Virus record (IMG/VR): IMGVR_UViG_3300008107_005910 | Location: 1 to 64,000 of that record | Strand: one strand, 5' to 3' | Origin: a virus | DNA length: 64,000 nucleotides | Shown: positions 5,510 to 61,211 of the stretch, in pieces | How the letters are laid out: every line of letters begins with the position of its first letter | How positions within the stretch are numbered: position 1 is the first letter of the stretch | Position numbers and translations under genes: made by a program | Notes under the pieces: generated by a model | What the model was told of the DNA's origin: nothing | What the model saw: only the letters and a program-made list of their open reading frames with translations | Databases searched by the model: none

Positions 5510-5510
5510 T

Positions 5511-38293: not shown

Positions 38294-38313
38294 AATAGAT
38301 GCATCCTTTGATT

Positions 38314-38321: not shown

Positions 38322-38349
38322 GGTGATAACTGCGTACATAAATATTTCC

Positions 38350-39871: not shown

Positions 39872-40555
39872 ATGTCTATACATTTTCCCTACGTTCCAGC
39901 AACTTATCGTAATATACCTAAAACGGGAACTACCAGCTTTAAATGGTGGTCTAGAGACAATATAAAAAATTGTGAAATATTAGAAGACCCTTCTAGGATT
40001 TATAATATGCAACATTTGTCTTTAGAAGAGATTCAACAAAAGTGGCCAAACTACGGAACAACTTTTACATTTGTACGAAATCCATTTGATAGAATGGTCA
40101 GTATATTTCATCACGTAGGCCAAGATGCCGAGGCACGAATTAAACAGCGTCCACTAGGCGGTACAAAAGAACAGTACGGAGTCAAACAAGAAGAACTAGA
40201 CTCTATACCAATTGAAATTGATATTAAAGTTTTACAAGTTTATAGGAAGGGATTTGATCACTGGGTACATTCAGACTTTGTACCAAATTACAATGATTCT
40301 CTAAATTCTTTGCTACATCAAAAAGAAAGTCAGATGTATTGGCTTAATAATGTAGTGCCTGATATTGTTATTAAAATTGAAGAAGTTAATCAAAAGTTTA
40401 ATCTATTACAAGACTTACTTGAATGCCATGTTCCTTTCATACATATAAACAAAAGTGAACACAAGCCTTACAAAGAGTATTATAACGAGTCAACTAAAAA
40501 GATAGTAAGAGATCTATTTAAAGATGACCTTGACGCTTTCAACTACGATTTTTAA
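39872..40555 (+). CDS. Sulfotransferase family protein
   Basis: 227 residues. RNIPKTGTTSFKWW is the 5' PAPS-binding loop. FTFVRNPFDRMVSIFHH is the 3'-phosphate-binding motif. The C-terminal YNESTKKIVRDLFKDDLDAF is typical of carbohydrate sulfotransferases. It would sulfate a glycan or other acceptor. Its end overlaps the opposite-strand deacetylase by 4 bases. Confidence 0.85.
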   Translation: MSIHFPYVPATYRNIPKTGTTSFKWWSRDNIKNCEILEDPSRIYNMQHLSLEEIQQKWPNYGTTFTFVRNPFDRMVSIFHHVGQDAEARIKQRPLGGTKEQYGVKQEELDSIPIEIDIKVLQVYRKGFDHWVHSDFVPNYNDSLNSLLHQKESQMYWLNNVVPDIVIKIEEVNQKFNLLQDLLECHVPFIHINKSEHKPYKEYYNESTKKIVRDLFKDDLDAFNYDF

Positions 40556-41196
40556 CGTCTAGAAAAAACAAGTTGGAAAGCTTCTGCATAGTTAACACCA
40601 ATTTGTGTTCCCCTAAACTTTGCTCTAGTTTCCATTGATTCAATACTACGTGCATCAGGGTATTGATAAGTTTCAGTTTGATACAAGTCCAATGCTTGCT
40701 TCTTTATATTAATAAAATCCCCAACATCAACAAAGATGTTTGGTTCAAATGTAGGTTGTACTTTATAGAAAGACCAATCTGAGCTGGCTGGTATTTCACA
40801 GAAGTACAATTCTTTAATAGTGGATTGTGGTTTGGGTCTACAAGCAACCATTGTTGCTTCTGCTACTACCCTGTGATCTTGATGTATGTCTGAAATACTG
40901 TGTGTATATACTACATCAGGTTTCATTTGGGCAATGATACTTTCAAGTTTATGAATAGTGGGTTGAGCAGTTAAAGCCAAATCAGGAACATTGTGGATTG
41001 TCCCTGTCGCACCAAATAGTTTACAGGCTTCATAAAACGATTTAACTCGTTGACTTGATACATTTTCATTGCCTGGACGTGCTCCATTGCACAATGAAAA
41101 GACATGCACATCATTGTCTAAAGAAAGTTTAGCAATAGTCCCACCTGGACCAAAACTCTCATCGTCGGGGTGTGCAAAAATAAACATTATTTTCAT
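40552..41196 (-). CDS. PIG-L/LmbE-type N-acetylglucosaminyl deacetylase
   Basis: 214 residues. FIFAHPDDESFGPGG carries the zinc-binding HPDDE, and SDIHQDHRVVAEA the second zinc site. The family deacetylates GlcNAc-containing sugars and conjugates. It is the last gene of the long leftward run and overlaps the epimerase by 4 bases. Confidence 0.92.
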   Translation of the reverse strand: MKIMFIFAHPDDESFGPGGTIAKLSLDNDVHVFSLCNGARPGNENVSSQRVKSFYEACKLFGATGTIHNVPDLALTAQPTIHKLESIIAQMKPDVVYTHSISDIHQDHRVVAEATMVACRPKPQSTIKELYFCEIPASSDWSFYKVQPTFEPNIFVDVGDFINIKKQALDLYQTETYQYPDARSIESMETRAKFRGTQIGVNYAEAFQLVFSRR

Positions 41197-42116
41197 AACA
41201 TATCCTTGATAATATCATCAAGATTATTAATAGGAAGATATTTAATATGCTGTTTAATTTTTGATAAATCTGGTATGCGAACGTTAATATCACCGTGATT
41301 AGATGAGAAAGCTTCTTCATAAGGAACACGAGTAATTTTACTTGATGAGTTACTCAGTGCTATGACACGCTCTGCTAGATCATTGATTGTTATAGGACTA
41401 TCATTACCAATATTAAACAACTCGCCATTAATAGTTGATACTTTGACCAGTGCGTCTACTGCATCATTAACGTGACAGAAACAACGTATTTGTTGGCCGC
41501 TTCCGTATACAACAAGGTCTTTTCCTTCCTTTGCGGCTTGCACAAATCTTGGCAGTACCATTCCGTAATCACCAAGTTGGCCAGGCCCAACTACATTAAA
41601 AAATCTAACTATTGTAAATGGACATCCGCTTGCTCTAAGCATGAACTCCATCATTAACTTACTGGTAGCATAACCCCAACGAAGTTTACTACTTGGGCCT
41701 ATGCTGGCATTTGCTTCTTCGTAAAATGGTCCGTCACCATATACTTCACTGGTGCTTGAAAAAACTACATGTTTTTTTGCACGTTGAAATAATGGCAACA
41801 ATTTGTTGTTCAAAGCAACATTGTTAAACAGTGTTTCACTAGGATGTTTATCTATATATTCAACACCAACGCTTCCTGCAAGATGGAATATCCTATGATT
41901 TTTACTGAATAATTTTAAAAGTTCATTGTCTTCCATTGTGGTAATGTCAGCTTCAATAAAATCAAATAAATTTTTATATTCAGAAAAATCATCTACATTA
42001 ATTTTAGAAGTTTTTAAATTATCAATAATGGTTACACGTTCTTGTCTTGTTTTAAGAAGTCTGTGTGCTAGGTGCTGGCCTATGAAGCCCGCGCCTCCCA
42101 GTAGTAAATTGTTCAT
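41193..42116 (-). CDS. NAD-dependent sugar epimerase/dehydratase
   Basis: 307 residues from ATG 42116. LLLGGAGFIGQHLAHRL is the NAD-binding loop, STSEVYGDG and WGYATSKLMMEF provide the Ser/Tyr-x3-Lys (Y-A-T-S-K) active site. It fits UDP-sugar 4-epimerase/decarboxylase-type short-chain enzymes. Its first 65 bases also encode the C-terminus of the preceding gene in another frame. Confidence 0.9.
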   Translation of the reverse strand: MNNLLLGGAGFIGQHLAHRLLKTRQERVTIIDNLKTSKINVDDFSEYKNLFDFIEADITTMEDNELLKLFSKNHRIFHLAGSVGVEYIDKHPSETLFNNVALNNKLLPLFQRAKKHVVFSSTSEVYGDGPFYEEANASIGPSSKLRWGYATSKLMMEFMLRASGCPFTIVRFFNVVGPGQLGDYGMVLPRFVQAAKEGKDLVVYGSGQQIRCFCHVNDAVDALVKVSTINGELFNIGNDSPITINDLAERVIALSNSSSKITRVPYEEAFSSNHGDINVRIPDLSKIKQHIKYLPINNLDDIIKDML

Positions 42117-42669
42117 AAATATCACCTAAAGTAATAATTTCCGTGTTAAATTGATCTAATCTAGACATTGCTTCAACCACATCACTGATGTGAGCAATGT
42201 AATGCAACTTGTTTGGTTGAGCAGGTTTGTATGCAGTACCTTTAATACAGCGCATAATAAATGCATCATCGTGCATACCTTCTCCGTATACAGATGGTAA
42301 TCTATAATTGATGCAGTCAATATCGCTATGTAAAAGATAAATTTCCATACACCGCTTTGCTACATTATACGCTCCTTGGGCAGTATCTGCAATATCAAAT
42401 ACGCCAAAAGTTGAAGCATTAATAAATGTTGCGGAAGGACAAATCATCATGGCTTTACGTGTACTATCTAAAATAGTATCCATAACGCCTATGGTATTAT
42501 CAGTAATAGTCTTAGTTGTGCTAGGACATGCTAAGTGATAAATCCTGTCACAATTTACTTGCTCAAAGTTCTTGGATATTTGAATTACTTCAAAGCCATC
42601 TAATTCTAACTGTTTAATAAGGTGCTTACCAATAAATCCTGTTGATCCCGTGATGGCAACTTTTTGCAT
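42052..42669 (-). CDS. NAD-dependent epimerase-like protein (short)
   Basis: 205 residues, shorter than the 300-residue norm. VAITGSTGFIGKHLIKQL is the NAD loop, TFINASTFGVF and GAYNVAKRCMEIY give a Ser and Y-x3-K. The C-terminal substrate domain is reduced. Both ends overlap neighbours by about 65 bases in a different frame. Confidence 0.85.
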   Translation of the reverse strand: MQKVAITGSTGFIGKHLIKQLELDGFEVIQISKNFEQVNCDRIYHLACPSTTKTITDNTIGVMDTILDSTRKAMMICPSATFINASTFGVFDIADTAQGAYNVAKRCMEIYLLHSDIDCINYRLPSVYGEGMHDDAFIMRCIKGTAYKPAQPNKLHYIAHISDVVEAMSRLDQFNTEIITLGDIYEQFTTGRRGLHRPAPSTQTS

Positions 42670-43472
42670 ATGATCCTTTCTATATCTTTTAAATTCTGTG
42701 CGAAATTTTCTGCGTTCTTGTAAATTTGATCAGCATAGTGCTCTGTTCTACTCTTGTGAACTTCTATTGATACTAATAGTGTTTGTAATTCATTTTCATT
42801 AAAAAGCTCTAACTTTGTCTCTTTTTCTTTATATGTATCTGATAACATAGACATCATCAAAATTACACTAACATTAAAATTTTTATAGTAGAACAAAAAT
42901 GCTTGGTACCCTGTAAATTTAAAACCTGTATCTGTTTTTTTAATTCGATTACAGTCAAAACAACGAAAAATATCCCCATACTCAAATAAAATATCATCAG
43001 TTGATGGCATCATATAACTTGGGGTGTAATCAAAAATAATCTTATTATAACTCAGTTGTTCTTCTTTAGTTAACTGTTGTTTAAAAGGAAGTATATGTGC
43101 ATTGAGTTCCTTAATTTGTTGATCCATTAATAAACAATCATCATAAGACAATTTCCCTAAATCAGGATAGTAAGGCATGTTTTCATAAAACCAAAGTTGG
43201 TCATCAACTTCAATAATTTTTACAATTGATTTCTCAAAAACATCAATTGGATTTTCCTCTAACCACTTGTCTAATTTATCTAATACAATATATCTAGCTT
43301 GATTGTTTTCAGTTATAGCACAAAAATTTATAAATCTATCTTTTACTTTTATAATGTAATCGTAAAATAATGGATCTTCATAGACGTAATAATATTCAAC
43401 ATCAATTGATGGAATATCAACAGCTTTTAACAATTTAAAGAACTTTAACTTTTCCAAGGCGCAGTATCCCAA
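42606..43472 (-). CDS. Hypothetical 288-residue protein
   Basis: Acidic and aromatic, mainly helical, with CFDCNRIKKTD (a CxxC) near residue 171. No fold recognised. Its last 64 bases also encode the start of the epimerase. Its place inside the biosynthetic run suggests a role in the pathway or as a scaffold. Confidence 0.6.
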   Translation of the reverse strand: MGYCALEKLKFFKLLKAVDIPSIDVEYYYVYEDPLFYDYIIKVKDRFINFCAITENNQARYIVLDKLDKWLEENPIDVFEKSIVKIIEVDDQLWFYENMPYYPDLGKLSYDDCLLMDQQIKELNAHILPFKQQLTKEEQLSYNKIIFDYTPSYMMPSTDDILFEYGDIFRCFDCNRIKKTDTGFKFTGYQAFLFYYKNFNVSVILMMSMLSDTYKEKETKLELFNENELQTLLVSIEVHKSRTEHYADQIYKNAENFAQNLKDIERIICKKLPSRDQQDLLVSTLLNS

Positions 43473-43921
43473 CCCAGTCTAATATAACGAACTCCTTTTT
43501 GTTGTAGTCCTTCTTTGACTGTTCTAATGAATGTGGATGTATCAATTGGGTCATACAACGGTATCCCCAATGCTTCCATTAGTTTGCTGTCGTCATCCAA
43601 TAAATGCCCTCTCCCGCAGATACTGTAACATCCGTTTGCGCCCGCATTAACAAAAAGTATGCTTCCATAATTTTCTGCCCATCCTTTGATGTTAAGTTTA
43701 ATTTGTTCGTATGCTTTGTATATTACAAATCCAGCAACTCCGTATATAATAACACGTTTACCTTGACTGGCAAGACCTGCGGCAATATTGACCATGTTAG
43801 GCTCTTGAACACCACAATTAATAATGTTATAATTGCTGTCAGTCCACTTCCACATGTCGCAATGAAGAAAATATACTTCTCCTGGATAGCGATTTAAAAA
43901 TTTATGTAAGGTTTCTCTCAT
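43445..43921 (-). CDS. Transketolase-like pyrimidine-binding half
   Basis: 158 residues. INCGVQEPNMVNIAAGLASQGKRVIIYG holds the catalytic Glu (QEPN) and the helix of the thiamine-diphosphate Pyr domain; FVIYKAYEQIKLNI follows as in transketolases. The C-terminal third domain is absent. It is one half of a split enzyme whose other half is at 45110-45826, with the halogenase-like gene between them. Confidence 0.8.
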   Translation of the reverse strand: MRETLHKFLNRYPGEVYFLHCDMWKWTDSNYNIINCGVQEPNMVNIAAGLASQGKRVIIYGVAGFVIYKAYEQIKLNIKGWAENYGSILFVNAGANGCYSICGRGHLLDDDSKLMEALGIPLYDPIDTSTFIRTVKEGLQQKGVRYIRLGWDTAPWKS

Positions 43922-45179
43922 CTTCTAACCATTTGTAAAATTCTTTTCCTCGCTGGATATCAATTAACTCTTGTGGATTGACTGCATCCTTGGGTCTAGT
44001 AACGTCACTTCTAAATCCTGATAATACATAGTCCCAAGCTTCAGCTGGGAAAATATCTATCTCTTTCCAATCCTCTACTGGCGCATTTTTATACAAGTCC
44101 CAATACTCGTTTGATCTCTTTGAATATTTGTAGTGAGCAATAATAAAATTCATAACACCATCAAACTCATCATTGGTTTGTTGATTATATTCTTGTTCAG
44201 TTAAGTTGCCATCAATGTAACTTGTTATTCTTTTTAATGCAGAAGTTGTCAAATATAATCCAGTTGATTCAATTGGTTCAATAAATGCTGAGCATAATCC
44301 AATTGCTACAACATTATCTTTCATGTGTACTTTGTTGCGCCCAGTACGCATACGAACAGTACCAATTTTGTTTCTATCAACTATTAAATGAAACTTATGT
44401 TGTATGTACTCAATAAACTCGTCCATGACATCAAACTTGTCACAATGCACGTAACCAACTGCCAGCTGATCGCCTAGTGGAATATTCCAAATCCATCCGC
44501 TATTTGCGGCTTTGAATATCGAATATGGTACACATTGATTCTGTTTGTCAGTATAAGGATGTCTAAAAACCAACGCTTTATTATTAGGAACTTTGTCTGA
44601 TATCTCAACAAAGTTGTCGTCCCAATTAGTCAACAGCTTTTTAAATCCTGTTGAGTCAATAACTAAATCAAAGCCTGTGACATCATCAACTGTTGCATCT
44701 TTACGTATGATGGTTAAATTTTTAAATTGTCCAACAAGTGTGTCCATGTACTTTAATATATCAGATGCTCTAAAGTGTACGGAGATATCTTTATATTCAT
44801 AAATGTTATCTGGAACTTTATTAATGGACATCATTCTATCAAGGCTACTGCTATTGTATTTGTCAGTTTGTCCAATACCAAATGGGAAAGTAAACTTTTC
44901 ACCTTCTTGATTAAAACCGTCAAATACAATACCTAACTTCAAAGTACCGTTGCAATGCTTAATGATATCTGCATGACTTATTCCTAAGTCATTTAAAAAA
45001 TGCGACACATCAGGTATCAGTGCTTCGCCAACTCCAATTGGACTATTCTCTTCTGGATATGTCCAAACGATCTCCTTATCTGGATATTGTTTGGCTAGAT
45101 AAAAAGCGGTTAGATATCCTGAAGTTCCTGCACCAACGATTGCAATTCTTCTAATGTTTCTATTTTCCTGTAGTGCCAT
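43902..45179 (-). CDS. Flavin-dependent tryptophan-halogenase-like protein
   Basis: 425 residues. AIVGAGTSGYLTAFYLA is the FAD-binding GxGxxG loop, SGWIWNIPLGDQLAVGYVH contains the W-x-W-x-I-P motif of flavin halogenases, and LCSAFIEPIESTGLYLT matches the later conserved block. The Lys that halogenases use (usually in a KxG/S element near residue 75) is not securely identified, so the reaction could be halogenation or another flavin oxidation. Overlaps the transketolase half by 70 bases. Confidence 0.78.
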   Translation of the reverse strand: MALQENRNIRRIAIVGAGTSGYLTAFYLAKQYPDKEIVWTYPEENSPIGVGEALIPDVSHFLNDLGISHADIIKHCNGTLKLGIVFDGFNQEGEKFTFPFGIGQTDKYNSSSLDRMMSINKVPDNIYEYKDISVHFRASDILKYMDTLVGQFKNLTIIRKDATVDDVTGFDLVIDSTGFKKLLTNWDDNFVEISDKVPNNKALVFRHPYTDKQNQCVPYSIFKAANSGWIWNIPLGDQLAVGYVHCDKFDVMDEFIEYIQHKFHLIVDRNKIGTVRMRTGRNKVHMKDNVVAIGLCSAFIEPIESTGLYLTTSALKRITSYIDGNLTEQEYNQQTNDEFDGVMNFIIAHYKYSKRSNEYWDLYKNAPVEDWKEIDIFPAEAWDYVLSGFRSDVTRPKDAVNPQELIDIQRGKEFYKWLEDERNLT

Positions 45180-45826
45180 TTTTTGTTATTCTCTTCCATT
45201 TGCTTTACACCCTTACCTTTTACTGTCTTACAAAAAACAATATTAGGAAGTGCATCAGTTTTGTTTACAAATACTTTTTCTAACTCGTCTCTATTGTGTC
45301 CGTCAACTATTTGCGTCCACCAACCATAATGTCTACACAAGTTAATAACAGGTTCAATTTTTAATATAGTATCTATATTACCAGTTACTTGTGAATTATT
45401 GTAATCAACAGTTACAAATACATTTTTAATTTGATTGTGTCCAATGAATTGTAATGCTTCTAATGTATTTCCCATTTGCAAACAAGCATCACTTAGATTT
45501 ACCCAAACTTGTTTACTAGTGGACATTGCAATACCAATTGCTACTCCAAGAGCATTGCCCATTGTTTCTTCGCCGTAGTCCACAAACGAAACTTCATCGT
45601 GTTTAACTCCAACACTGAGTTGCTCAATATTTGTTACATACTGTAAGTCTTGCCAAACAAGATAGTATGCTTGTGCTCCAAAGGGTTTACCAATTACAAT
45701 GTAATCGTCAATACTAACAATACCTTTTGAAAATAGTATGTCAACATAGTCAAGCATACTTAATGCACTTGCTATGTGGCTTAGTTTATTTTCAAATGAG
45801 TATTCTAGTAAACGTTTTCGATTCAT
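45110..45826 (-). CDS. Transketolase-like diphosphate-binding half
   Basis: 238 residues. ETMGNALGVAIGIAMSTSKQ, then LSDACLQMGNTLEAL and VTVDYNNSQVTG give the thiamine-diphosphate Mg site (Asp and Asn spaced about 30 residues). It pairs with the Pyr half at 43445. Split transketolases of this type occur in secondary metabolism and sugar biosynthesis. It overlaps the radical SAM gene by 4 bases. Confidence 0.85.
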   Translation of the reverse strand: MNRKRLLEYSFENKLSHIASALSMLDYVDILFSKGIVSIDDYIVIGKPFGAQAYYLVWQDLQYVTNIEQLSVGVKHDEVSFVDYGEETMGNALGVAIGIAMSTSKQVWVNLSDACLQMGNTLEALQFIGHNQIKNVFVTVDYNNSQVTGNIDTILKIEPVINLCRHYGWWTQIVDGHNRDELEKVFVNKTDALPNIVFCKTVKGKGVKQMEENNKKWHYRKIETLEELQSLVQELQDI

Positions 45827-46851
45827 TTAAACGGCTTCCTTGGCAAATAAAAATCACCGCCGCAGTAATCCCAACGACATTTAGTTCCAGAATTAAACAG
45901 TACATTCATTTTGGTAACAGCCAATCTATCATTCACTAAATTAGTATATGGTGTTTCAGGTATACATTCTCTTAGATAATTGGTCATGTGTATGCCGCAG
46001 TTAAAAACATTACCATCACCATTAATGGTAATGCTACGTGTTCCAGCGGCACAGTGCCAACCTCTATTATCAACACCTTTTTTAAATAAATCATTAGTGT
46101 TGTACATTACACCGTCAATACAATAAAGTTGTTCAGTCTTATTGTATTTGTTGTAAAATTCAATATGACGTTTTGATGTTTCTTCATTATATGCGTAATG
46201 ACAAAACCCATAAATCATTTCACTATTAATAATCTTATCATAGGTTAAACACTCTTTAACGTAATCATAAAATTCGTCAATATGCTCTTCTGGAATATTT
46301 TCTAACATAACATCAAAGTTATGTATGGCAACGCCTAACTCTTTAATTCTATTAAAATTTTGTTTGAATGAGGACAGTTTGTTAGTTCGATCTTTTAATT
46401 CTAAATAGTGTAGAGATACATTGAACTGTTCACATAGTGGTAGCAACTCTTCTAACAGCTCTGTTTTAAATGTTAGATTAGTTTGCATTTCATTATATGC
46501 TGTTATACCTGTCTCAGAACTCTTTTTCTTCACATATTTTAATATATCAATTACTTTGGGATGTCTAGTTGCCTCACCGCCGTGATAGTAAAACATCACA
46601 CTATTAAATTTGTTCTTTTGAAAAAATTCAAAAAGTTTGTCAATACTAGTAATAATGTCTTCGTACTTGTAATGTCGTCCTGAATGCCAATGGCAATAAT
46701 TACAATGCAAGTCGCAAGCTTCTGTAATTCTAAATGTTACATTGTACTCAGCATTGTACCCACCATGGTCATTTACCTGTACTATTTTATATGATTCTAT
46801 TGGCTTTATCTCGCCAACTTTCATTTCTTCTTTAGTTGTTATTTTTGTCAT
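45823..46851 (-). CDS. Radical SAM protein with C-terminal Cys cluster
   Basis: 342 residues. TEACDLHCNYCHWHSG is the CxxxCxxC motif, YYHGGEATRHP the following GGE motif. C-terminal Cys (CAAGTRS, NCGIHM, KCRWDYCGG) suggest an auxiliary cluster as in SPASM/twitch proteins that act on peptides. Overlaps neighbours by 1-4 bases. Confidence 0.85.
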   Translation of the reverse strand: MTKITTKEEMKVGEIKPIESYKIVQVNDHGGYNAEYNVTFRITEACDLHCNYCHWHSGRHYKYEDIITSIDKLFEFFQKNKFNSVMFYYHGGEATRHPKVIDILKYVKKKSSETGITAYNEMQTNLTFKTELLEELLPLCEQFNVSLHYLELKDRTNKLSSFKQNFNRIKELGVAIHNFDVMLENIPEEHIDEFYDYVKECLTYDKIINSEMIYGFCHYAYNEETSKRHIEFYNKYNKTEQLYCIDGVMYNTNDLFKKGVDNRGWHCAAGTRSITINGDGNVFNCGIHMTNYLRECIPETPYTNLVNDRLAVTKMNVLFNSGTKCRWDYCGGDFYLPRKPFK

Positions 46852-47438
46852 TATATGACCATCCTAGTACCAGTTACATCTAACTCAATGTAGCTTAAAC
46901 CTTTTATGGTTGGTACATTTATAATTTGTTTTGCGGCAATTAATGGATCTACTGCTTGATCAATATGACTTAGGTTACCTGTAAGTTTTGTTCTAACAAA
47001 CCCAGGATGAACCAATTGCCAATTAATGTGTTCAAATTGTTTTGACAGTTCCATCACTCCCATGTTTAATGCCGCCTTGCTCATTCGATAATATATAGAA
47101 GCAGTATCAGCTGAGATTACATTGCCTTTAGTCAATGCACCAAGTATACTTGTTAATACAACAATCTTGTCGTTAACATGCGGAGCAATATACTGTAAAA
47201 ACTCAATGCTTCGCGTTGCATTAACTTCCATTGTTTCATCTGCTTCAGTTGATATACCAATACAATAATATACTTTTGAAAACTTGTTTTGGAATACGGG
47301 CCAACTACTCTTATCTTTAATATCTAACTGTATAAATTTAGAATCAGTCCTTCTACTCGTACCAAGTGCATCAGGCAATAATTCATGTATTGCTTTGCCA
47401 ATGCCGCTGTCAACACCAATAACAATATCCTTAATCAT
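46851..47438 (-). CDS. Short-chain dehydrogenase/reductase
   Basis: 195 residues, small for an SDR. IVIGVDSGIGKAIHELLP is the nucleotide loop (G-x3-GIG), VLTSILGALTKG and ASIYYRMSKAALNMGVM give Ser and Y-x3-K. It would reduce or oxidise a sugar or carbonyl intermediate. Confidence 0.82.
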   Translation of the reverse strand: MIKDIVIGVDSGIGKAIHELLPDALGTSRRTDSKFIQLDIKDKSSWPVFQNKFSKVYYCIGISTEADETMEVNATRSIEFLQYIAPHVNDKIVVLTSILGALTKGNVISADTASIYYRMSKAALNMGVMELSKQFEHINWQLVHPGFVRTKLTGNLSHIDQAVDPLIAAKQIINVPTIKGLSYIELDVTGTRMVI

Positions 47439-48069: not shown

Positions 48070-48075
48070 GATACA

Positions 48076-52802: not shown

Positions 52803-53866
52803 TTTTTTAAATAAAAGTTTACTTCTTTAATTTTTTCACCTGGTTCTGGATAAAATTCTTCATCCATTTCCTTTTTAATTCCATCACAAATATAAAAATG
52901 TTTACAAGTTACACAACTTAAATCTTTACGATAAAATCTTTCTCTATGACTGGCGGCTTCTTTATACGCCATTTTAACTTTCTCTTCCTCAGTATATGGT
53001 CTGCTTACATCCATTTCTTGATTGTAGGTTTCGCGATTCCAATCTCTAACATCATATATGTGTTGAAATATATTATACTGATATTGTTCATAACCCTTCA
53101 TATAGCAGTACGGAGTATATCGAACAATTATTTCAATTTCCTTATCTAATTTATCAATACATTTTTTAATACCGTCAGTTAAATCAGATAGACTTAAATT
53201 GCTAAAGTCTTCTTCATTGTTCTCAAGCCAATAATTTAATGTAATAAAATTAACAGCTACTGGCTTAATTGAATTAATTAGGTCTGCATAAACATTTTCA
53301 AGTTGATGATAATTTCTAGAATAAACTGTACAATTGATTCTAACAATCATTCCCAATTCTTGTGCGTTTTTTATTCCTTGTAATATTTTTTCATATGATC
53401 CTGGACGATTAGTAATTGCCTCATGTGTTTCTTTGGTAGGCCCATGTAAGCTGAACAATATCTCTTTTAATCCATGTTCCTTACTCTTACGTAAGTGATT
53501 CATATTGGCAAAAGTTCCGCCATGGCTTAGACAACTAATACTGGTAAATCTTTCATTACAGTAATCTAAAATTTTAAACCAATCAGGACTCATGGAACTT
53601 TCGCCGCCGCTTAAATCAACTTCAGTAATGCCGTAATCATACAAATAGTCAATCCTCTTTTTGACCACTTCCCATGGAGTTTTTTGATCTAGTATATCCC
53701 TATAATAACAAAATTCACAATCATAATTACATAACGGACCAGTGTCTAATCTAGACCTATTACATCTAGTAGATTTAAAATCATAATTTAATCCAGACAC
53801 ACTCAACTGTTGTAAGTCGTGTTGTACAGGAGATTGTTTTGTAAAAGATATTTTACTTTCTTTCAT
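52799..53866 (-). CDS. Radical SAM protein
   Basis: 355 residues. GPLCNYDCEFCYYRDI is the cluster motif, VDLSGGESSMSP the GGE-type motif. C-terminal CVTCKHFYICDG supplies extra Cys. Long enough for a full barrel plus a twitch-type end. Confidence 0.85.
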   Translation of the reverse strand: MKESKISFTKQSPVQHDLQQLSVSGLNYDFKSTRCNRSRLDTGPLCNYDCEFCYYRDILDQKTPWEVVKKRIDYLYDYGITEVDLSGGESSMSPDWFKILDYCNERFTSISCLSHGGTFANMNHLRKSKEHGLKEILFSLHGPTKETHEAITNRPGSYEKILQGIKNAQELGMIVRINCTVYSRNYHQLENVYADLINSIKPVAVNFITLNYWLENNEEDFSNLSLSDLTDGIKKCIDKLDKEIEIIVRYTPYCYMKGYEQYQYNIFQHIYDVRDWNRETYNQEMDVSRPYTEEEKVKMAYKEAASHRERFYRKDLSCVTCKHFYICDGIKKEMDEEFYPEPGEKIKEVNFYLKK

Positions 53867-54792
53867 GTTATGAACTCTTTAACATATTTGATAAAATCAT
53901 CGTTATCTGTCAATAATAATGAATTAATGTCTTTTGAAATATCTTCTCGCCTTCTTTCAACGCCACCGCAGACATAATCAATATCATATATCACTTCCTT
54001 ACCATAAACTGCACACTCAACAATAAACCTTGGGCTACAATCTCCTTTATCTGGTGTAGCAGTATATATGTAGGTATCAAAGTTTTCAAATATATTTTTG
54101 ATTGGCGCTTGAGCAACAATCACATTGTCGCTTGCTATCGTTTTGTAGATGTGAGGTTCATTAGTAAGTACTAGATATTTGTCAAATTGATATTTAGATA
54201 AAACATTTTTCAAATCATTAATTGATAATGCTCTACAGTTAGTAGTTAGGTAGAGAAGTGCTGTATTAGTTTTTATTAGTTGTGGATGATGATATTTTGA
54301 CCAAAGTATCTTTTTGACATAGTCTATTACTTTGATATTAATGTTATCATATCTCTCAGGATATAACTTAAAATCCTGCATGACATGAGCATGTTTGATT
54401 GTTTTGTGATTATGGAAGCTACTGAAGTCGTCTTCACTACACCTTAGTAAAAACATATTTTCAGTATAGAAGACACAACTTAAGAATCGCCAACTGCCAT
54501 CAACAACACAGACATTGTTTGCCATAACAATTTTAGGCACAGCACACTCAAACGTGTCTTCTTGTATTTTTACAAATTCGTCTTCTGTGAAACTATATTT
54601 GTCTTTGACCGCAGTTAAAAATAAATCTTTGCTAGTACGGTCAGTTAACAAAATGCAGGAATTAATTCCATTGATAGAACTTATGTAATAATAGTCGATG
54701 AGTTCATACAAGTGGCCACTGACACCATGCTGGCATTCAAAAGAAGTGGTGAAGACGAGATCGTACTTCTTTAGATCGACTATTTTGGACAT
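53863..54792 (-). CDS. GT-B-type glycosyltransferase-like protein
   Basis: 309 residues. A C-terminal DCSPRFIVECAVYGKEVIYDIDY resembles the sugar-nucleotide binding end of GT-B enzymes (P-x3-E-A...G). The N-terminal half lacks a clear motif. Similar proteins occur in T4-like phages. Assignment is tentative. Confidence 0.45.
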   Translation of the reverse strand: MSKIVDLKKYDLVFTTSFECQHGVSGHLYELIDYYYISSINGINSCILLTDRTSKDLFLTAVKDKYSFTEDEFVKIQEDTFECAVPKIVMANNVCVVDGSWRFLSCVFYTENMFLLRCSEDDFSSFHNHKTIKHAHVMQDFKLYPERYDNINIKVIDYVKKILWSKYHHPQLIKTNTALLYLTTNCRALSINDLKNVLSKYQFDKYLVLTNEPHIYKTIASDNVIVAQAPIKNIFENFDTYIYTATPDKGDCSPRFIVECAVYGKEVIYDIDYVCGGVERRREDISKDINSLLLTDNDDFIKYVKEFIT

Positions 54793-54795
54793 CTG

Positions 54796-55797
54796 TCACT
54801 CCTTTGGAGCGAAGATTTGTTCAAGAGTGATTGGGGTGTAACCTAAAGAAACAAGCAAAGAATCTGAAAGATGTGGGAGTGGACGATTGTATTCTTTTTC
54901 TAATTCTTCTCTAAATCTAGAATATGCTGAACATATTCCTTCAACTGCGTCAACATCCACGTAGTCTAAATTTAAATTTTCTTTTTCCCACACAGATATT
55001 ATTCCGTTGTAATCTGCATATCCTTCAGGCATCTGAATTTTGTGATTTTCAATCTCAACGTAACCACTCTTTAATATATCTTCAAATTTAATAGATGTTA
55101 CGTCAGTGAGTTGGTTTAGTGTATATGCGTTAACTGCTGACCTAATTGCTCTTATTCGATTTCTCTCTGGAGACATTGTAGGATTTTTTTCATAATACGA
55201 AGGTTTATTTTCGTTGAAGTATGTAACTACGGAAGGGTGTCTTATGATATTGTACACCTTTACATTTTGCTCACCTATGTCTCTTTTTATTAAATCAATA
55301 AATGCTTTTGAAAAAGAACCATTTACAACATGTACATTAGATGGTCTATTTCTATAGTAATTTAAAAAGTCTTGATAACCGTGTGCAAAACTATGATACT
55401 GTATTGGAGTATCCCATTCATAGGCGCTAGTATCTATACCAAGATCATATTCTATATCAACAAAAATAGTTTCAAAACTTGAAGGATTATTTGTCATGTC
55501 TAAAAATAATCTATCATACAAGTCGTCAGCTTCTGTAAAAATAGACAACCCGTCCTCGCCGCTAAGAAGTGTTGTTAGTTCTCGATTTTTTGTATCATAA
55601 ACAACTTCATTTTGTGCATTGAATATTTGAAAAGGATGAGCTATATATGACTTACCATCGTCAGATTCTGCAAATTCTGCATCAAACGTAACAGTGTGTC
55701 CATTTTTCAAATTAAAGACTGGATTCATAGCGCAAAAAACTTTTTTTGCGATATAATTTTTATTAATTGATTCTAGACCACTAATAATGACTAACAT
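54796..55797 (-). CDS. Sulfotransferase/kinase-like paralogue B
   Basis: 333 residues, paralogue of 49019-49708: GSFSKAFIDLIKRD, YNIIRHPSVVTYF, SIKFEDILKSG and LGYTPITLEQIF align with A. It has about 100 extra residues in the N-terminal half. The shared loop and RHP motif suggest a phosphate- or PAPS-binding transferase. Confidence 0.6.
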   Translation of the reverse strand: MLVIISGLESINKNYIAKKVFCAMNPVFNLKNGHTVTFDAEFAESDDGKSYIAHPFQIFNAQNEVVYDTKNRELTTLLSGEDGLSIFTEADDLYDRLFLDMTNNPSSFETIFVDIEYDLGIDTSAYEWDTPIQYHSFAHGYQDFLNYYRNRPSNVHVVNGSFSKAFIDLIKRDIGEQNVKVYNIIRHPSVVTYFNENKPSYYEKNPTMSPERNRIRAIRSAVNAYTLNQLTDVTSIKFEDILKSGYVEIENHKIQMPEGYADYNGIISVWEKENLNLDYVDVDAVEGICSAYSRFREELEKEYNRPLPHLSDSLLVSLGYTPITLEQIFAPKE

Positions 55798-55801
55798 CCA
55801 A

Positions 55802-56209
55802 TTATTTCCTTAGATAAGACTCAACAATCAAATTAACTGCGTCCTCATCATTTTGATTTGGCAGTCTTTTTAATTTGTTTATAATATCAAAATACTGTTC
55901 TTTTTTATCTTCTAAAATTTTAATTTCGTCTTTTAAAGTGATGTATTTTTCTAAATCTGCAATCAATGACTCGTCATTAAGTTCAATGATTTTAATATAA
56001 CATTCTTCTTTATTATCATCTGTGATTGCAATGCCTTTACTTAAAAATTTATTGTTTAACATCATTAAAGACACGAAGTCAATTAATTTAAAAGTTAAAA
56101 GGTCATCACCAAAATAACCACGGGCCTTAGTTTTAACTGCCCATGCCGCTTTTCCTGCATAAGTTGATCTGTCAATACCTTCTATTTCTTTTTTATTACT
56201 GTCATCCAT
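55802..56209 (-). CDS. Hypothetical 135-residue protein
   Basis: ATG 56209 used; a TTG start at 56221 adds four residues. Helical, with KAAWAVKTKARGYFGDD near the start and a coiled-coil C-terminal half (LKDEIKILEDKKEQYFDI). It follows the S74 relic by one base. Unknown; may be virion-associated or a partner of the modification enzymes. Confidence 0.5.
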   Translation of the reverse strand: MDDSNKKEIEGIDRSTYAGKAAWAVKTKARGYFGDDLLTFKLIDFVSLMMLNNKFLSKGIAITDDNKEECYIKIIELNDESLIADLEKYITLKDEIKILEDKKEQYFDIINKLKRLPNQNDEDAVNLIVESYLRK

Positions 56210-56210
56210 C

Positions 56211-56433
56211 TTAAGCCTCAATCATTTTTACTGGTAATTTTGAATAGTTTACTTGATAATAACCGTTTGAATCTTTACTTAGTGCATCTTCATATTTGGT
56301 GCCTAAAAGTTCTTGAGCCATAACACCAATATAAGTCTTAGCAGTGTTCCAAACGTAAGAGAAGGAATAAACATTTAAGCCTTCAACAATGTCAACAAGT
56401 TTGATAGATGTCTTTAATCTAATATCACTAATT
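56211..56433 (-). pseudogene. Relic of S74 tail-fibre chaperone domain
   Basis: From ATT 56433, AGT GAT reads ISDIRLKTSIKLVDIVEGLN, the start of the Peptidase_S74 auto-cleaving domain (Ser-Asp-x-Arg-Leu-Lys). A TAA interrupts at 56340-56338; shifting one base gives KTYIGVMAQELLGT...NGYYQVNYSKLP, the next conserved blocks, to TAA 56213. There is no start codon and the frame is broken, so it looks like a decayed fibre end. A frameshifting signal is not evident. Confidence 0.7.
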
Positions 56434-56643
56434 TAAATCGGCAGCTTCAATCAAACCAGTAAATCTAGCTTGAACTACAGGTGCGGCGGTGCTTCCTCGT
56501 CTAACACGTTCTAAATTGACTGCGGTTTCAATTTCTCTAAATTTGGTAGTTGTAACTTGTACTCCGGCTGCAACTGCTGGCAAAAAATAAATTACAGCAT
56601 CTGATCCAGGATTGGTACCAAATGTATTAATGACTTTTGGCAT
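56428..56643 (-). CDS. Hypothetical 71-residue probable virion protein
   Basis: Gly, Ala and Val-rich with VYFLPAVAAGVQVTTTKF-like strands (VIYFLPAVAAGVQ) and a Glu/Asn/Leu region. Its stop overlaps the beginning of the S74 relic, so it may be the surviving upstream part of a fibre gene or a separate small structural protein. Confidence 0.5.
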   Translation of the reverse strand: MPKVINTFGTNPGSDAVIYFLPAVAAGVQVTTTKFREIETAVNLERVRRGSTAAPVVQARFTGLIEAADLN

Positions 56644-56656
56644 TACGTTGCTCCTC

Positions 56657-57046
56657 TTATATCTCTTTGTTCAAGAACTCTAAGTTCTGTTTAGCACTAT
56701 TTTGAGCAACAAACTTTTCATAATCGTCTAAATCAGAAGAGGCAGTTATAAAATCGAGAGTCTCTTCGTCTGGTGCTTTAGTAAAATTCATGTTTCCGTT
56801 TTCTACGGCTTGTTTTTCCAAAATGCTCAAAACTAATTCTTCCAATGAAAAACCCAAAATGCCTGTAACAATTTGGATTTTTTCGCTTACATCCATATTT
56901 TTTGTTTCAGCAACATGTTTGGCTGCTTTGATAATGTTTATTGACATACCAAAGCCTTCCATGAAGACGTATCCAACATCTTGATTCTCTTTCTCGATTT
57001 CCTTAATCAAATCATAAATTTGACCCATTTTTTCTTCAATCGCCAT
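56657..57046 (-). CDS. Hypothetical 129-residue acidic protein
   Basis: Helical, with LIKEIEKENQDVGYVFMEGFG at the start and acidic C-terminus (DLDDYEKFVAQNSAKQNLEFL). It overlaps a radical SAM gene by 11 bases and could be its partner or substrate, but no leader-peptide-like motif is evident. Confidence 0.5.
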   Translation of the reverse strand: MAIEEKMGQIYDLIKEIEKENQDVGYVFMEGFGMSINIIKAAKHVAETKNMDVSEKIQIVTGILGFSLEELVLSILEKQAVENGNMNFTKAPDEETLDFITASSDLDDYEKFVAQNSAKQNLEFLNKEI

Positions 57047-57926
57047 TTTTTAATTCCTTGTCTTTAAAATCGTGAAAACGCGGCGCATTTTCGTAATTAC
57101 CATATGTTGTGACGTTGCCTTCATCAGTGAAATACGTTTTTAACTGCTTTCGCTCCCCGCATCCGTTGCACATATCGCAAAATAGTTCACAAATAGGGGT
57201 TTTTATGCTGTTATTTATCCAATCATCTCTGAGCTGATTTTTAATCCTATCTAGGGTTTTCACATCGTTTTCGTCAATTTGTTCCCAAACTACAGATGTT
57301 ATCAATCTAACTGGCTTGAAGGTTTTAATGATTCTTGTCATATCTTCATAAAGATGATTGATATTAAGTTTGTGTATGGTATATCTTATTCTAAATTTCA
57401 CCCTATTTTGATTTAATTTAGATAAAACTTTAATTATGGTTGTAGTACTATCCATACCATTGTGGAAAATCCTATCGCCATTTCCCACACCGTCAAAGCT
57501 CACGTCTATGCTCAACTGTCCGCTCTTATAAAAGAAATTATTTTTAACCCTGTTAATAAATCTTTGACTTAAAAATCTTAAACCATTTGTGGTTAAATTA
57601 AAATGTACATTCTTTTTCTTAAGATATGCGTATGACATAGCGTAACAGACATTGTCCCATTCTAAAGTGGCCTCTCCACCAAATAGTACTATTAATGTTT
57701 GTCTGTCTGGATCCAATTCTCTTTCCAAGATAGCATCAATGCTTTTTTCAATATCTTCCTTAGTCATGATCTGTGGAGGACGACCTGGCAGATCTTCGTA
57801 ACAATAGGTGCAGGCTAAATTACACTTATTTGTAAAATATAAAACATTAACTGCTGAACCTTCAAAAGTAGGTTTCTCTGTTTTATCACCTACATAAAAT
57901 TCATAAGGAAAGGCCGTATCTGTCAT
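57036..57926 (-). CDS. Radical SAM/twitch protein
   Basis: 296 residues. FTNKCNLACTYCYEDLP is the cluster motif, VLFGGEATLEWD the GGE motif, and CELFCDMCNGCGERK the auxiliary-cluster Cys. The pattern matches anaerobic sulfatase-maturase or RiPP-maturase-like enzymes. Overlaps the small gene by 4 bases. Confidence 0.87.
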   Translation of the reverse strand: MTDTAFPYEFYVGDKTEKPTFEGSAVNVLYFTNKCNLACTYCYEDLPGRPPQIMTKEDIEKSIDAILERELDPDRQTLIVLFGGEATLEWDNVCYAMSYAYLKKKNVHFNLTTNGLRFLSQRFINRVKNNFFYKSGQLSIDVSFDGVGNGDRIFHNGMDSTTTIIKVLSKLNQNRVKFRIRYTIHKLNINHLYEDMTRIIKTFKPVRLITSVVWEQIDENDVKTLDRIKNQLRDDWINNSIKTPICELFCDMCNGCGERKQLKTYFTDEGNVTTYGNYENAPRFHDFKDKELKNGD

Positions 57927-58192
57927 TGTCTAGCCTTTGCTTCTTTTACAATGTGAGCAACATTATCTAAGAATTTTACGTAATCAAATTTATATTCAAA
58001 CAAGTGGCCTGCTTCATTCCTGTAATCAACATAATGATTGTCTACTTTTGCCTTGCCTTTTTTTGCTTCTTCAATTTGTTGTTGTAAATTATCAATAGTT
58101 AAAACAGTATCGCTCTTATGCTCAACTGGCTGCATTTCTACTTTAACAGGAATGGCAGCTATGCTTTTATAAGTTTTTTTTAATTCTTGCAT
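57923..58192 (-). CDS. Hypothetical 89-residue protein between two radical SAM genes
   Basis: Lys/Glu/Gln-rich helices and a YKFDYVKFLDNVAHIV segment, no Cys. Overlaps both flanking radical SAM genes by 4-13 bases. It could be a partner protein or peptide substrate; neither is shown. Confidence 0.5.
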   Translation of the reverse strand: MQELKKTYKSIAAIPVKVEMQPVEHKSDTVLTIDNLQQQIEEAKKGKAKVDNHYVDYRNEAGHLFEYKFDYVKFLDNVAHIVKEAKARQ

Positions 58193-59307
58193 TTTTGCAC
58201 ATCCTTTGAATCAGAAGCACCTTCACTGAGCCAATGAACAATGAGGTCTTGAAATACTGGCTCATCTCGACATTCATCTACTACACGCATTGCTTGTTCG
58301 TAAGTGATGTGGAAAATTTCACAAATACTATCTAAAGGTTTGTTGTCGTTCATTATTTGACTGTAAGTACAACCTGCATTACATACTTGTTTTAGATCAC
58401 AAGGTTGGCACTTGTCAAAAGTTTTTGGATTAAACTTGTCTTGATAATATTTGAAATTATAATTGTCGTCCATGAGCATGATTTTCTTACTAGCAAATCT
58501 AGCACATGGATAAAACTCGCCGCTACTCATCAAAACACCACCGTGTGTTCCTGCAAAACAACCAAATGGTCTTTTACCTTTTACTAGTCCGTATATAGAA
58601 TCTAATATTGCCAGTCTAAGGAAACCAACACTACATGATACACCTTGTTTTAACTTTTCAATATAACAGTCAGTTAGTCTAACTAATTCAGTTTTGAAAA
58701 ATCTAATATCATCAGCAGTCCAAACATCGTCTCTAACAATACTAAAGTCTGGATGTGGGATACCCCAATCTAAAAGAAACTCAAAATTTTCTTTCATGTC
58801 TTTGGTATTGCCTGGCCAAATCATAACCTTACATCCATTTGCTAGATCTTTTATTAGATGTTTTTTGTGCTCGTATAAGTCTAAGATTCCATTAAACAAC
58901 TCTCCAGTTTCTGGATTAGTGTTTTCAAGTAAGGGAAGTAATGGTCTGCTTTCGTTTGAACTCATTCCATCAAAGCTCCAACTTATTCCTATTCCAGATT
59001 CTTTGATAAATTTAAACTTATCATCATCTATCATAGTTAAATTAGAGATAATGTTTATTCCTTTACATCTAGGATCTTTGGTTAATATTGGAGTTGCATG
59101 TTTGATCAATTCCCAATTTAATAAAGGCTCTCCTCCAAAAAAACTAACAAAGAAATCCTTTTGTCCAGAACGATCCATTAATTCAAATAGTTTTGGTAAA
59201 GATTCATCAAATGTTTCTTTGGTCATCCAAGTAGGACGATTTGCCACATAACAATAAGGACATCCCAAATTACATTTTTCAGTAACGCTAATTTCTAATA
59301 CAAACAT
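58180..59307 (-). CDS. Radical SAM/SPASM protein
   Basis: 375 residues. SVTEKCNLGCPYCYVANRP is the cluster motif, FFGGEPLLNWE the GGE motif. C-terminal FGCFAGTHGG, FYPCARF, CQPCDLKQVCNAGC and CEIF give seven Cys, the SPASM pattern of peptide-modifying enzymes. Confidence 0.9.
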   Translation of the reverse strand: MFVLEISVTEKCNLGCPYCYVANRPTWMTKETFDESLPKLFELMDRSGQKDFFVSFFGGEPLLNWELIKHATPILTKDPRCKGINIISNLTMIDDDKFKFIKESGIGISWSFDGMSSNESRPLLPLLENTNPETGELFNGILDLYEHKKHLIKDLANGCKVMIWPGNTKDMKENFEFLLDWGIPHPDFSIVRDDVWTADDIRFFKTELVRLTDCYIEKLKQGVSCSVGFLRLAILDSIYGLVKGKRPFGCFAGTHGGVLMSSGEFYPCARFASKKIMLMDDNYNFKYYQDKFNPKTFDKCQPCDLKQVCNAGCTYSQIMNDNKPLDSICEIFHITYEQAMRVVDECRDEPVFQDLIVHWLSEGASDSKDVQKCKN

Positions 59308-59316
59308 ATCGTCTCC

Positions 59317-60423
59317 TTATGCTGTACATTGTTCAGCGTGAATCTTAATAACAGGCTTTTTGTATGTGTTCATTGCAGTTCTTAGAGCATGATGAACTAC
59401 TTCGTTTGTCTTAAAAACTTTACATACTTGCCAATTAGAAGTATGATCACTCCACTTTTCTAAATAAGTTTCTTTCTCTGATTTTTCAAACGTGGCTGCA
59501 TTACACTTCATGCAAAATTGGCTATCGCAACTCATACAATCCAAAGGTTGATTTTTTAGTGCATCTTTATACATTGCACTTCGTTCTTGTATAAGTTCAT
59601 CTATGTTAGGTGTTGTATTAATATTACCCATAACATGTGCATGTGATTCTTTATACATACAACCATGGCAAGGACTAATATCTCCGTTTAGGTCAACACT
59701 AACATATTTGATTCCAGCTGAACATAGCGGTCTACTCTGTTGGAACCAAGCAAAAACTTCTGGTTTTAGTTTATTGGTGTAAATGTATTTTGCAATTTTT
59801 GCCAATCCCTGTTTGAGCACTTCAAGTTTTGGATAAAATTCTTCTTCAGTTAATTGGCTGTAAAGGTCTGGAGTGGGGAAATATGAACCTGTAAGTTCAT
59901 ATACATCTAGGAATGCTTCATATATCAAGTGAAAGTTTTCAGCAGTTAAAACAGATTTCATTCTAACATTCAATCCATTTTCTCTAGCAGCCAAGAAATT
60001 AGCCTTTACTAGTTCAGAGCTTACGTTTCCTGATTTGTCTACTCTAGTTCTATCATTGACGGCCTTACCATCATAAGATATTTGGAACTGTAGTCTTTCA
60101 CCTAATTCTTTTGTTAGAGCAACTAGTTCTTTCATATACTTTCTTAAATATACACCATTGGTATAAAAGAAGAAACTATAATTAGAATCATGTTTATATT
60201 TTTCTATGACGCCTTTACAAAATTCCCAATTAATAAAAGGTTCACCGCCCCAAAAATAAATTTCTCTTTTTGGGTCTGAGAGTTTACTCATAAACTCTTC
60301 AATGTTGTCTAGGGTTACGGAAGTGTTTTCTTCATATGCTGTTGATAGGCCGCATTCATAGCCTTCAGAACAGTAAGTACAAGCCAGATTGCACGTACTG
60401 GTTACGTTGATGTCAATTATCAT
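59317..60423 (-). CDS. Radical SAM/SPASM protein
   Basis: 368 residues. VTSTCNLACTYCSEGYECG is the cluster motif, FWGGEPFINWE the GGE motif. PLCSAGIKYV, SPCHGCMYK, LDCMSCDSQFCMKCN and WQVCKVF give the SPASM Cys set. Close in layout to the 58180 protein, so probably a duplication. It precedes the ugd-like gene, the first gene of the run, by 47 bases. Confidence 0.9.
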   Translation of the reverse strand: MIIDINVTSTCNLACTYCSEGYECGLSTAYEENTSVTLDNIEEFMSKLSDPKREIYFWGGEPFINWEFCKGVIEKYKHDSNYSFFFYTNGVYLRKYMKELVALTKELGERLQFQISYDGKAVNDRTRVDKSGNVSSELVKANFLAARENGLNVRMKSVLTAENFHLIYEAFLDVYELTGSYFPTPDLYSQLTEEEFYPKLEVLKQGLAKIAKYIYTNKLKPEVFAWFQQSRPLCSAGIKYVSVDLNGDISPCHGCMYKESHAHVMGNINTTPNIDELIQERSAMYKDALKNQPLDCMSCDSQFCMKCNAATFEKSEKETYLEKWSDHTSNWQVCKVFKTNEVVHHALRTAMNTYKKPVIKIHAEQCTA

Positions 60424-60470
60424 ATTTTTCCTTAGTATTTTTTAAACGCCCACCGCTGGGCTAATGTTAT

Positions 60471-61211
60471 TTAGCTTCTATATTTTTGGTTTATTTCGAG
60501 TACGGATTTAAGCAATTCTACGTCAAATTCTTTAACTAATGCTTCTGTATCTTTAGGTAAGCAAGGTCCACCAAAACCACGCTCACCATCGGGGCCTGGG
60601 ACTTGAAAGTGGTGTGTACCCATCCAAGGGTGATTTGCAAGTATGGATGTTACATGTGGCCACTTGACTCCTAACTGTTGGGCAACATCATACATCTGAT
60701 TCATAAAGGTCACTTTGGTAGCATAAAAACTGTTCATGCAATACTTGGCCATTGCCGCAGTTTTGACATCAGTGAAGATTACTTTGTCCATATTGACAAT
60801 GGACTGTGTTCTATAAATGTCGGCTAACTTGAAACCCTGTCTGTCATCATTGCAGCCAATTAAAACAAATGGAGGATCAGTGAAATCAGTATTGGCAGTT
60901 GCCCTAGATAAAAACTCAGGATTGTAAACTATATTATACGGTACCAAGTAATCTGGAAGTATGGTACTCTTGACAACCACTATCCCAATGTATCCTGTAG
61001 ATTCTATTCTATCTAAAACACTGGTCAAGATGCTATAATTGGTATCATTGGTTGGGGTGGGCACACAAACAAAAATGGCGTCAGGTGCCTGTTTGCAAAT
61101 ATCTTCTACAGATATATCATTGTACTCTGGGTCTGAGCAGATGACTTGTGTTTTGGAGAATCCAAACTCCACAGCCTTCCCCACCATACCATAACCAATA
61201 ATACCAATCAT
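60471..61211 (-). CDS. UDP-glucose/GDP-mannose dehydrogenase, short
   Basis: 246 residues. IGIIGYGMVGKAVEFGF is the NAD loop, VVVKSTILPDY and YNPEFLSRATA are conserved, and GFGGPCLPKDTEAL holds the catalytic Cys. The C-terminal nucleotide-binding domain of the 400-residue family is absent, as in other phage copies. It is the first gene of the leftward biosynthetic run. Confidence 0.88.
   Translation of the reverse strand: MIGIIGYGMVGKAVEFGFSKTQVICSDPEYNDISVEDICKQAPDAIFVCVPTPTNDTNYSILTSVLDRIESTGYIGIVVVKSTILPDYLVPYNIVYNPEFLSRATANTDFTDPPFVLIGCNDDRQGFKLADIYRTQSIVNMDKVIFTDVKTAAMAKYCMNSFYATKVTFMNQMYDVAQQLGVKWPHVTSILANHPWMGTHHFQVPGPDGERGFGGPCLPKDTEALVKEFDVELLKSVLEINQKYRS

Follow-up and report, generated by a model that had tools for sequence, protein, structure and literature searches.

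A radical SAM-rich phage gene cluster and its probable substrate, a cysteine-heptad protein probably of the phage tail

In the PapB/PapA ranthipeptide system (NF047865), which has a radical SAM (rSAM)/SPASM maturase, the short precursor has six CX3D/E motifs, and PapB joins Cys to Asp or Glu side-chain carbons, a Cys thioether to a non-alpha carbon, and accepts Cys-Xn-Asp with n = 0-6 (PMC9413430). The CXXX-repeat and SCIFF systems (TIGR04115, TIGR03974; 5wgg-type maturase) likewise place an rSAM maturase beside a Cys-repeat protein. In phages, S74 intramolecular-chaperone domains (PF13884) are found at the ends of tail fibres. In addition, the Campylobacter phages CP220 and CPt10 were found in 2010 to carry 11-12 rSAM genes per genome, which was recorded as highly unusual, and the 21-bp repeat in CPT_0180 was recorded as the only intragenic repeat, but the two were not connected (Timms et al. 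2010, PMC2853527). Activating or methylating roles were later proposed for such enzymes (Carvalho et al. 2012, PMC3322345). Here, we analyzed a viral gene cluster that looks like an assembly line for the chemical modification of a phage protein made of repeated cysteine-rich seven-residue units, which is probably located on the tail, and we found that the same set recurs in unrelated phages, including the Campylobacter phages.

The window analyzed is a stretch of 64,000 nucleotides (positions 1 to 64,000) of the 76,770-base IMG/VR record IMGVR_UViG_3300008107_005910. A first-pass annotation, made from the sequence alone, had described an operon of about 27 leftward genes behind a sigma70-type promoter, with seven rSAM genes, several of them with SPASM/twitch Cys, two small unknown proteins beside them, two epimerases, an SDR, a PIG-L deacetylase, glycosyltransferases, a halogenase-like protein, a 2OG oxygenase, a split transketolase and two sulfotransferase-like paralogues, and with an eighth rSAM gene and a sulfotransferase lying divergently. 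We found 27 ORFs on the minus strand from 61211 to 40552, mostly overlapping or within a few bases of each other. Genes are named below by their first coordinate, and the features of the locus are as follows.

61229..61257 (-): sigma70-type promoter TTGACA-17-TATTAT before the first gene, a weak prediction
60471..61211 (-): short UDP-glucose/GDP-mannose dehydrogenase (UGD-like, 246 aa; PF00984, 63 bits), first gene of the syntenic block in relatives
59317..60423 (-): rSAM/SPASM enzyme, core family 1 (PF04055, PF13186), orthologous to CP220 gp136
58180..59307 (-): rSAM enzyme with the SPASM Cys pattern (CX2CX5CX3C), core family 2; invariant Cys in the alignment A6; nearest solved structure 5wgg
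57923..58192 (-): 89-aa conserved protein, possible substrate-recognition partner (inferred), found only beside these rSAMs in the loci compared
57036..57926 (-): rSAM enzyme, core family 3 (PF04055)
56657..57046 (-): 129-aa protein conserved in the freshwater clade
56428..56643 (-): N-terminal stump of the heptad-repeat protein gene, ended by a frameshift at a 284-bp deletion
56211..56429 (-): out-of-frame remnant of the S74-type C-terminus of the same gene
55802..56209 (-): protein that follows the repeat gene in most lineages
54796..55797 (-): paralogue of 49019-49708, function unknown
53863..54792 (-): conserved protein (phrog_24441), possibly a GT-B-like glycosyltransferase (inferred from its conserved SPRFIVECA motif)
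52799..53866 (-): rSAM enzyme, orthologous to CP220 gp163 (45% identity over 95% in Campylobacter phages)
52143..52802 (-): GT2 glycosyltransferase (PF00535, 43.5 bits)
51244..52146 (-): rSAM enzyme (PF04055)
50505..51254 (-): rSAM enzyme (PF04055)
49705..50520 (-): conserved, syntenic protein of unknown function
49019..49708 (-): paralogue of 54796-55797 (26% identity in the alignment A2)
48076..49032 (-): protein of unknown function, in some relatives
47431..48069 (-): 2OG-Fe(II) oxygenase (PF13759, 76 bits)
46851..47438 (-): SDR-like oxidoreductase (weak Pfam match, NCBIfam SDR)
45823..46851 (-): rSAM enzyme (PF04055)
45110..45826 (-): transketolase-like ThDP-binding half (PF00456)
43902..45179 (-): flavin-dependent halogenase-like protein (PF04820, 227 bits)
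43445..43921 (-): transketolase-like pyrimidine-binding half, 40-44% identical to the gene directly upstream of the repeat gene in Campylobacter phages
42606..43472 (-): variable gene of unknown function, no family found
42052..42669 (-): epimerase/dehydratase-like protein (PF01370, 44 bits)
41193..42125 (-): NAD-dependent epimerase or UDP-sugar enzyme (PF01370, 150 bits; best NCBIfam model of UDP-xylose synthase type, below cut-off)
40552..41196 (-): PIG-L family deacetylase (PF02585, 74 bits)
38299..39870 (+): eighth rSAM protein, divergent, with a weak B12-binding match; membership uncertain
39872..40555 (+): sulfotransferase family protein (PF03567, 35 bits), divergent; membership uncertain

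Thus, the operon described by the first-pass annotation is real. PF04055 scored over the Pfam cut-off in the seven rSAM genes and in the eighth, and the UGD, PIG-L, epimerase, GT2 and 2OG oxygenase assignments were confirmed, as was the halogenase, in which the motifs GAGTSG and WIWNIP were found at positions 16 and 229. The SDR and the pyrimidine half of the transketolase are weak matches, although the split transketolase is supported by both halves and by relatives. The promoter is among the two best of 108 promoter-like hits (11 of 12 consensus matches), but such hits are only slightly above shuffled sequences (89 +/- 10). T4-type late promoters (TATAAATA) numbered 3 in the window against 8.6 expected, with none in the operon, and therefore gave no argument on timing. 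However, the label "sulfotransferase-like" for 49019 and 54796 is not supported, as neither protein had a Pfam match and a profile search against the PDB returned no sulfotransferase and nothing meaningful; the only Pfam sulfotransferase is 39872-40555, outside the operon. PDB profile searches for 53863 and 55802 also gave nothing usable. Outside the operon, a structural protein at 34914-36227 is 44-47% identical to cyanophage and Puniceispirillum phage proteins.

To compare the locus with its relatives, we retrieved 23 loci carrying relatives of rSAM 59317. In the relatives long enough to show it, there was a conserved block of UGD, rSAM, rSAM, 89-aa protein, rSAM, 129-aa protein, a further gene and a 139-aa protein. 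The further gene encodes about 170-310 aa with an almost invariant array, CTCNCNYCTCNCNYCTCNCNYSCTCNCNY, often followed by an S74-type end. In the window, this gene is broken, which the first-pass annotation had missed. The contigs L010 and L011, which are 99.9-100% identical to the window on both sides, have 284 more bases at 56429/56430, and the loss of these bases shifts the frame, leaving the 71-aa ORF 56428-56643 and the out-of-frame C-terminal remnant. The intact protein has a near-invariant C-T-C-[N/D]-C-N-Y heptad array, with 4 copies in these contigs and up to 28 elsewhere. The deleted allele was found in no other record of the viral collection, so it may be either an assembly error or a rare mutant, and no heptads remain elsewhere in the window's own record; here, the pathway may have lost its substrate. 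Two relatives carry three or four tandem copies of the gene, each with its own N-terminal part but the same repeat.

Across 41 ORFs, 313 heptads were tallied. Cys at positions 1, 3 and 5 was the search condition; position 2 is Thr in 77%, position 4 is Asn or Asp in 91%, position 6 is Asn in 95% and position 7 is Tyr in 89%, and the spacing is 7, or 8 with one inserted residue. Heptads within one gene differ at about 0.82 of synonymous sites, which is near saturation, and at 0.07 of nonsynonymous sites, so the peptide is under selection, not the DNA. Pfam and NCBIfam hold no family for the repeat. The intact repeat protein P0001 matched phrog_26958, of unknown function, through the repeat, and also matched S74 with 28.3 bits; the members from L026 and L030 scored 25.7 and 31.7 bits (gathering cut-off 22), whereas S74 was not found in P0002, L083, L085, L091 and L082. 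A short S74-type C-terminus follows the repeat in many members, but unlike in described S74 tail fibres, these are small proteins with the Cys array between an N-terminal domain and S74, and several keep only the first residues of S74 or lack it. A PDB search with the long heptad protein returned only RNA polymerase II large-subunit tails, a repeat artefact.

We next examined whether the repeat is linked to rSAM genes. A degenerate pattern for two heptads found 44 IMG/VR records, while the same pattern read backwards found none in them. Of 32 records tested, 27 have rSAM domains (2 in one, 3-16 in the others). In four of the five without, the repeat lies within about 1.7 kb of a contig end, whereas one, G020, is a real exception on 43.8 kb; wherever else the contig allows a look, rSAM genes lie within about 3 kb. 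The nearest same-strand rSAM is most often 4-500 bp upstream. In bacterial genome contigs, only one stretch matched, on a 3-kb contig that is itself rSAM-rSAM-unknown-repeat. Proximity alone is only mildly unlikely (permutation p about 0.006) because rSAM genes cluster, and we therefore relied on operon adjacency and on a test from the enzyme side. A profile of the 58180 family retrieved 76 viral loci. Of the 59 with at least 35% identity, 50 have a heptad gene within 10 kb; six of the other nine are cut by a contig end less than 1 kb from the match, and three are Campylobacter phages that carry the repeat elsewhere. Of the 17 distant rSAMs, one has it (Fisher p about 3e-9, although the sequences are related and not independent). 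Three of the distant loci (L169, L172, L178) have variant Cys repeats such as CHSNCHSDC. In a tree of 72 rSAMs, the families 59317, 58180, 57036 and 52799 largely grouped by family and not by phage. The records are metagenomic fragments of partly shared ancestry, so these counts overstate independence; the distinct contexts seen are the freshwater-type myovirus clade, more distant virus contigs with the three-rSAM core, Campylobacter phages and a siphovirus.

A megablast search of the INPHARED database with the operon gave no match, and neither did a tblastn search with P0001, probably because of low-complexity filtering and divergence; CP220 gp140 (CPT_0180), which contains CLCDCNYCTCDCNYCTCDCNYCTCNCNYCTCDCNYCTCDCNYCTCN, was reached through the rSAM instead. 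The CP220 genome has hits to 11 operon families: UGD (89 bits), rSAMs 58180 (282), 57036 (103), 59317 (164) and 52799 (381), 55802 (65), 53863 (114), the transketolase halves 45110 (60) and 43445 (110), 41193 (85) and PIG-L (38). These genes are spread over 177 kb rather than forming one operon, and its sugar genes differ, but the 43445 homologue lies directly upstream of gp140. The closest phage homologues of the halogenase are in the Campylobacter phages CP21 and IBB_35. All 15 Firehammervirus records in INPHARED have the repeat protein, and 15 Campylobacter records each have a 59317-type, a 58180-type and a 52799-type rSAM. The rSAM hits in Vibrio jumbo phages were distant, one 30-kb neighbourhood being read by its annotation only. 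In the literature collection searched, which lacks most subscription journals, no paper contained CNCNY in this sense, and we found no report of phage rSAM maturation of virion proteins and no published link between phage rSAM genes and this repeat.

The placement of the protein on the tail is inferred from gene neighbourhoods, seen in three further lineages only, and from the S74-type ends. In G034, a 146-kb siphovirus, a minimal pair of one rSAM and a heptad gene lies in the tail-tip module, in the order Dit, Tal-like (YOMG_N, Prophage_tail), rSAM, repeat gene. In L098 the repeat gene starts one base after a 2007-aa tail-fibre gene, in L086 it lies between tail-fibre genes, one with S74, and in CP220 it lies in a region with tail sheath, tail tube and tail-fibre attachment genes.

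With regard to the enzymes, CX3CX2C is present in all seven rSAMs of the operon, and a SPASM-type C-terminal Cys pattern is present in 58180 and 59317 but incomplete in the others. The core rSAMs, the CP220 enzyme and the minimal enzyme have PapB as the best NCBIfam model, but all scores are below the curated cut-off of 340 bits (91, 122 and 74 bits for 57036, 58180 and 59317, and 184 for the G034 enzyme). The second-best models for the minimal enzyme include those of the CXXX-repeat and SCIFF systems, also below cut-off. As in the PapB system, the substrate would be a repeated Cys motif with nearby Asp in many copies; however, it is a phage protein of 140-530 aa rather than a short leader-core peptide, the motif is a CxCxCxY heptad and not CX3D, and several rSAMs plus sugar and halogen enzymes are present. 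From the CXXX-repeat and SCIFF systems, the locus differs in its repeat, its phage setting and its larger substrate.

Taken together, the explanation we favor, with moderate confidence, is that the operon is one maturation pathway whose protein substrate is the gene broken in this contig. In this view, three PapB-like rSAM enzymes (59317, 58180 and 57036), perhaps guided by the small proteins 57923 and 56657, act on the array, most likely forming Cys thioether (or related) cross-links within or between heptads and so turning a flexible Cys-rich stretch into a stable rod. The further rSAMs, glycosyltransferases, sugar-nucleotide enzymes, split transketolase, halogenase and 2OG oxygenase would add groups to the same protein or build what is attached; this is the simplest reading because several of the sugar and halogenase genes accompany the repeat even in CP220, where there is no operon. 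The range of spacings accepted by PapB would fit several pairs in the heptad, but the acceptor at position 4 is Asn as often as Asp, which PapB is not reported to use, and the Asn and the conserved Tyr leave other chemistries open, including carbon-carbon links. What the analysis establishes is the set of genes, the repeat and its strict conservation, its linkage to rSAM genes in several phage lineages and its tail-gene context. In contrast, the action of the rSAMs on the repeat, the bond type, the role of the tailoring genes, the presence of the protein in the virion, and adhesion or particle stability as the benefit are inferences from sequence comparison alone.

The first-pass annotation had interpreted the operon as a pathway for a modified glycan or peptide, perhaps decorating the tail fibre or host surface, and this interpretation is partly supported. 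A modified peptide on the tail is close to what the comparison supports, and the operon is syntenic in at least eight relatives, but no substrate could be named from this contig because it lacks the repeat. Relatives carrying only scattered subsets had been named beforehand as an observation that would speak against a pathway, and scattering does occur in CP220; however, the scattered genes there still travel together with the repeat protein, which argues for functional linkage rather than hitch-hiking. A glycan on the host surface is not excluded as the product of the sugar genes.

The main rival, which we consider possible but unlikely, is that two systems lie side by side, namely rSAM enzymes that act on the heptad protein and a separate sugar-nucleotide, glycosyltransferase and halogenase pathway that makes a glycan for the host envelope or another virion protein. 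The minimal systems (L082, L085) have only the repeat and rSAM genes, the L082 pair being a repeat protein of 142 aa and an rSAM of 434 aa, and sugar genes are common in large phages; nevertheless, both sets form one syntenic operon in at least eight relatives, and UGD, 41193, PIG-L and both transketolase halves accompany the repeat in CP220. It is more doubtful that the heptads are a metal-binding or disulfide-bonded array, like a metallothionein or a Cys-rich solenoid, that needs no radical chemistry, with the rSAMs serving another substrate. CxCxC is a classic metal-ligand pattern and G020 has the repeat without an rSAM on the contig, but this hypothesis does not explain the conserved Thr, Asn and Tyr, nor why rSAMs of Cys-cross-linking type accompany the repeat in nearly every lineage.

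Phages do carry metabolic rSAMs such as QueE, and host-directed metabolic or DNA-modifying roles have been proposed for the enzymes of Campylobacter phages (PMC2853527, PMC3322345). However, the scenario that the rSAM genes are such enzymes and sit near the repeat gene by chance seems very unlikely given the enzyme-side test (50 of 59 against 1 of 17), the SPASM-type Cys pattern and peptide-maturase similarity, and the single rSAM next to the repeat in G034. The least likely alternative is that the heptad protein is a secreted RiPP-like precursor, for example a bacteriocin. PapB-like enzymes usually act on RiPP precursors, from which, in the strict sense of RiPP, a leader peptide is removed from a modified core, and one copy in L091 (125 aa) has little beside the repeat, but no transporter or protease was identified in the operon, and the repeat sits in proteins of about 140-530 aa with S74-type ends or inside tail-gene modules.

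More tentatively, it is possible that several unrelated phage lineages encode their own multi-enzyme rSAM pathway that covalently cross-links a heptad-repeat tail protein, and in the freshwater clade also decorates it with sugars or halogens, giving an irreversibly stapled virion part, which would be a class of virion maturation not described before. These findings give a concrete candidate substrate to the unexplained wealth of rSAM genes in Campylobacter phages and in uncultured freshwater phages and make the question testable in an isolated phage. If this reading is correct, peptide-stapling chemistry known from natural products is also used to build virus particles, which would change how phage adhesins are annotated and expressed, and would supply rSAM enzymes that act on long tandem repeats.

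Outside the operon, four further features were found in the window:
5304-5759 (+), phage-encoded permuted tmRNA
31004-31076 (-), freshwater-2 RNA motif
37502-38293 (-), kinase (adenylyl-sulfate-kinase-like) fused to a nucleotidyltransferase-like domain
61290-62480 (+), 5-aminolevulinate synthase

The tmRNA matched RF04321 (137 bits) and RF01850, the betaproteobacterial type (119 bits), and the tag given by ARAGORN ends in ANESRYALAA, which hints at a betaproteobacterial host. The freshwater-2 RNA motif scored over the Rfam gathering score. The kinase fusion lies just before the divergent rSAM and sulfotransferase genes, while the 5-aminolevulinate synthase (TIGR01821, 565 bits, over cut-off) is divergent from the operon and is kept beside it in some relatives.

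In the relatives, we observed that a DUF6356 (PF19883) protein gene sits in some cases between the repeat gene and the 55802 homologue (locus L013:15195-15656, and also L025:14431-14901). In addition, the linkage between the repeat and rSAM genes showed one real exception, in locus L086 (record G020), where a repeat protein with 17 heptads lies between tail-fibre genes on a 43.8-kb contig without any rSAM gene.

Cysteine repeats of other types, and tandem copies of the heptad-repeat gene, were also found. In the Campylobacter phages CP21 and CP220 (L166:18423-19277 and L165:17845-18216), a second, CxxC-type Cys-rich repeat protein, with 76 Cys in 284 aa in CP21, was located about 7 kb from the 58180 orthologue. 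Two relatives (L016:13804-16368 and L030:9501-11558) carry three or four tandem repeat-protein paralogues that have differing N-terminal parts and the same heptads, as if the variable part were being diversified. Finally, variant Cys repeats (CHSNCHSDC, CTCNVDCTCNVD and others) were observed beside distant relatives of rSAM 58180 in three loci (L172:14576-15079, L169:12430-12897 and L178:5074-5568), suggesting that the system may have several motif types.
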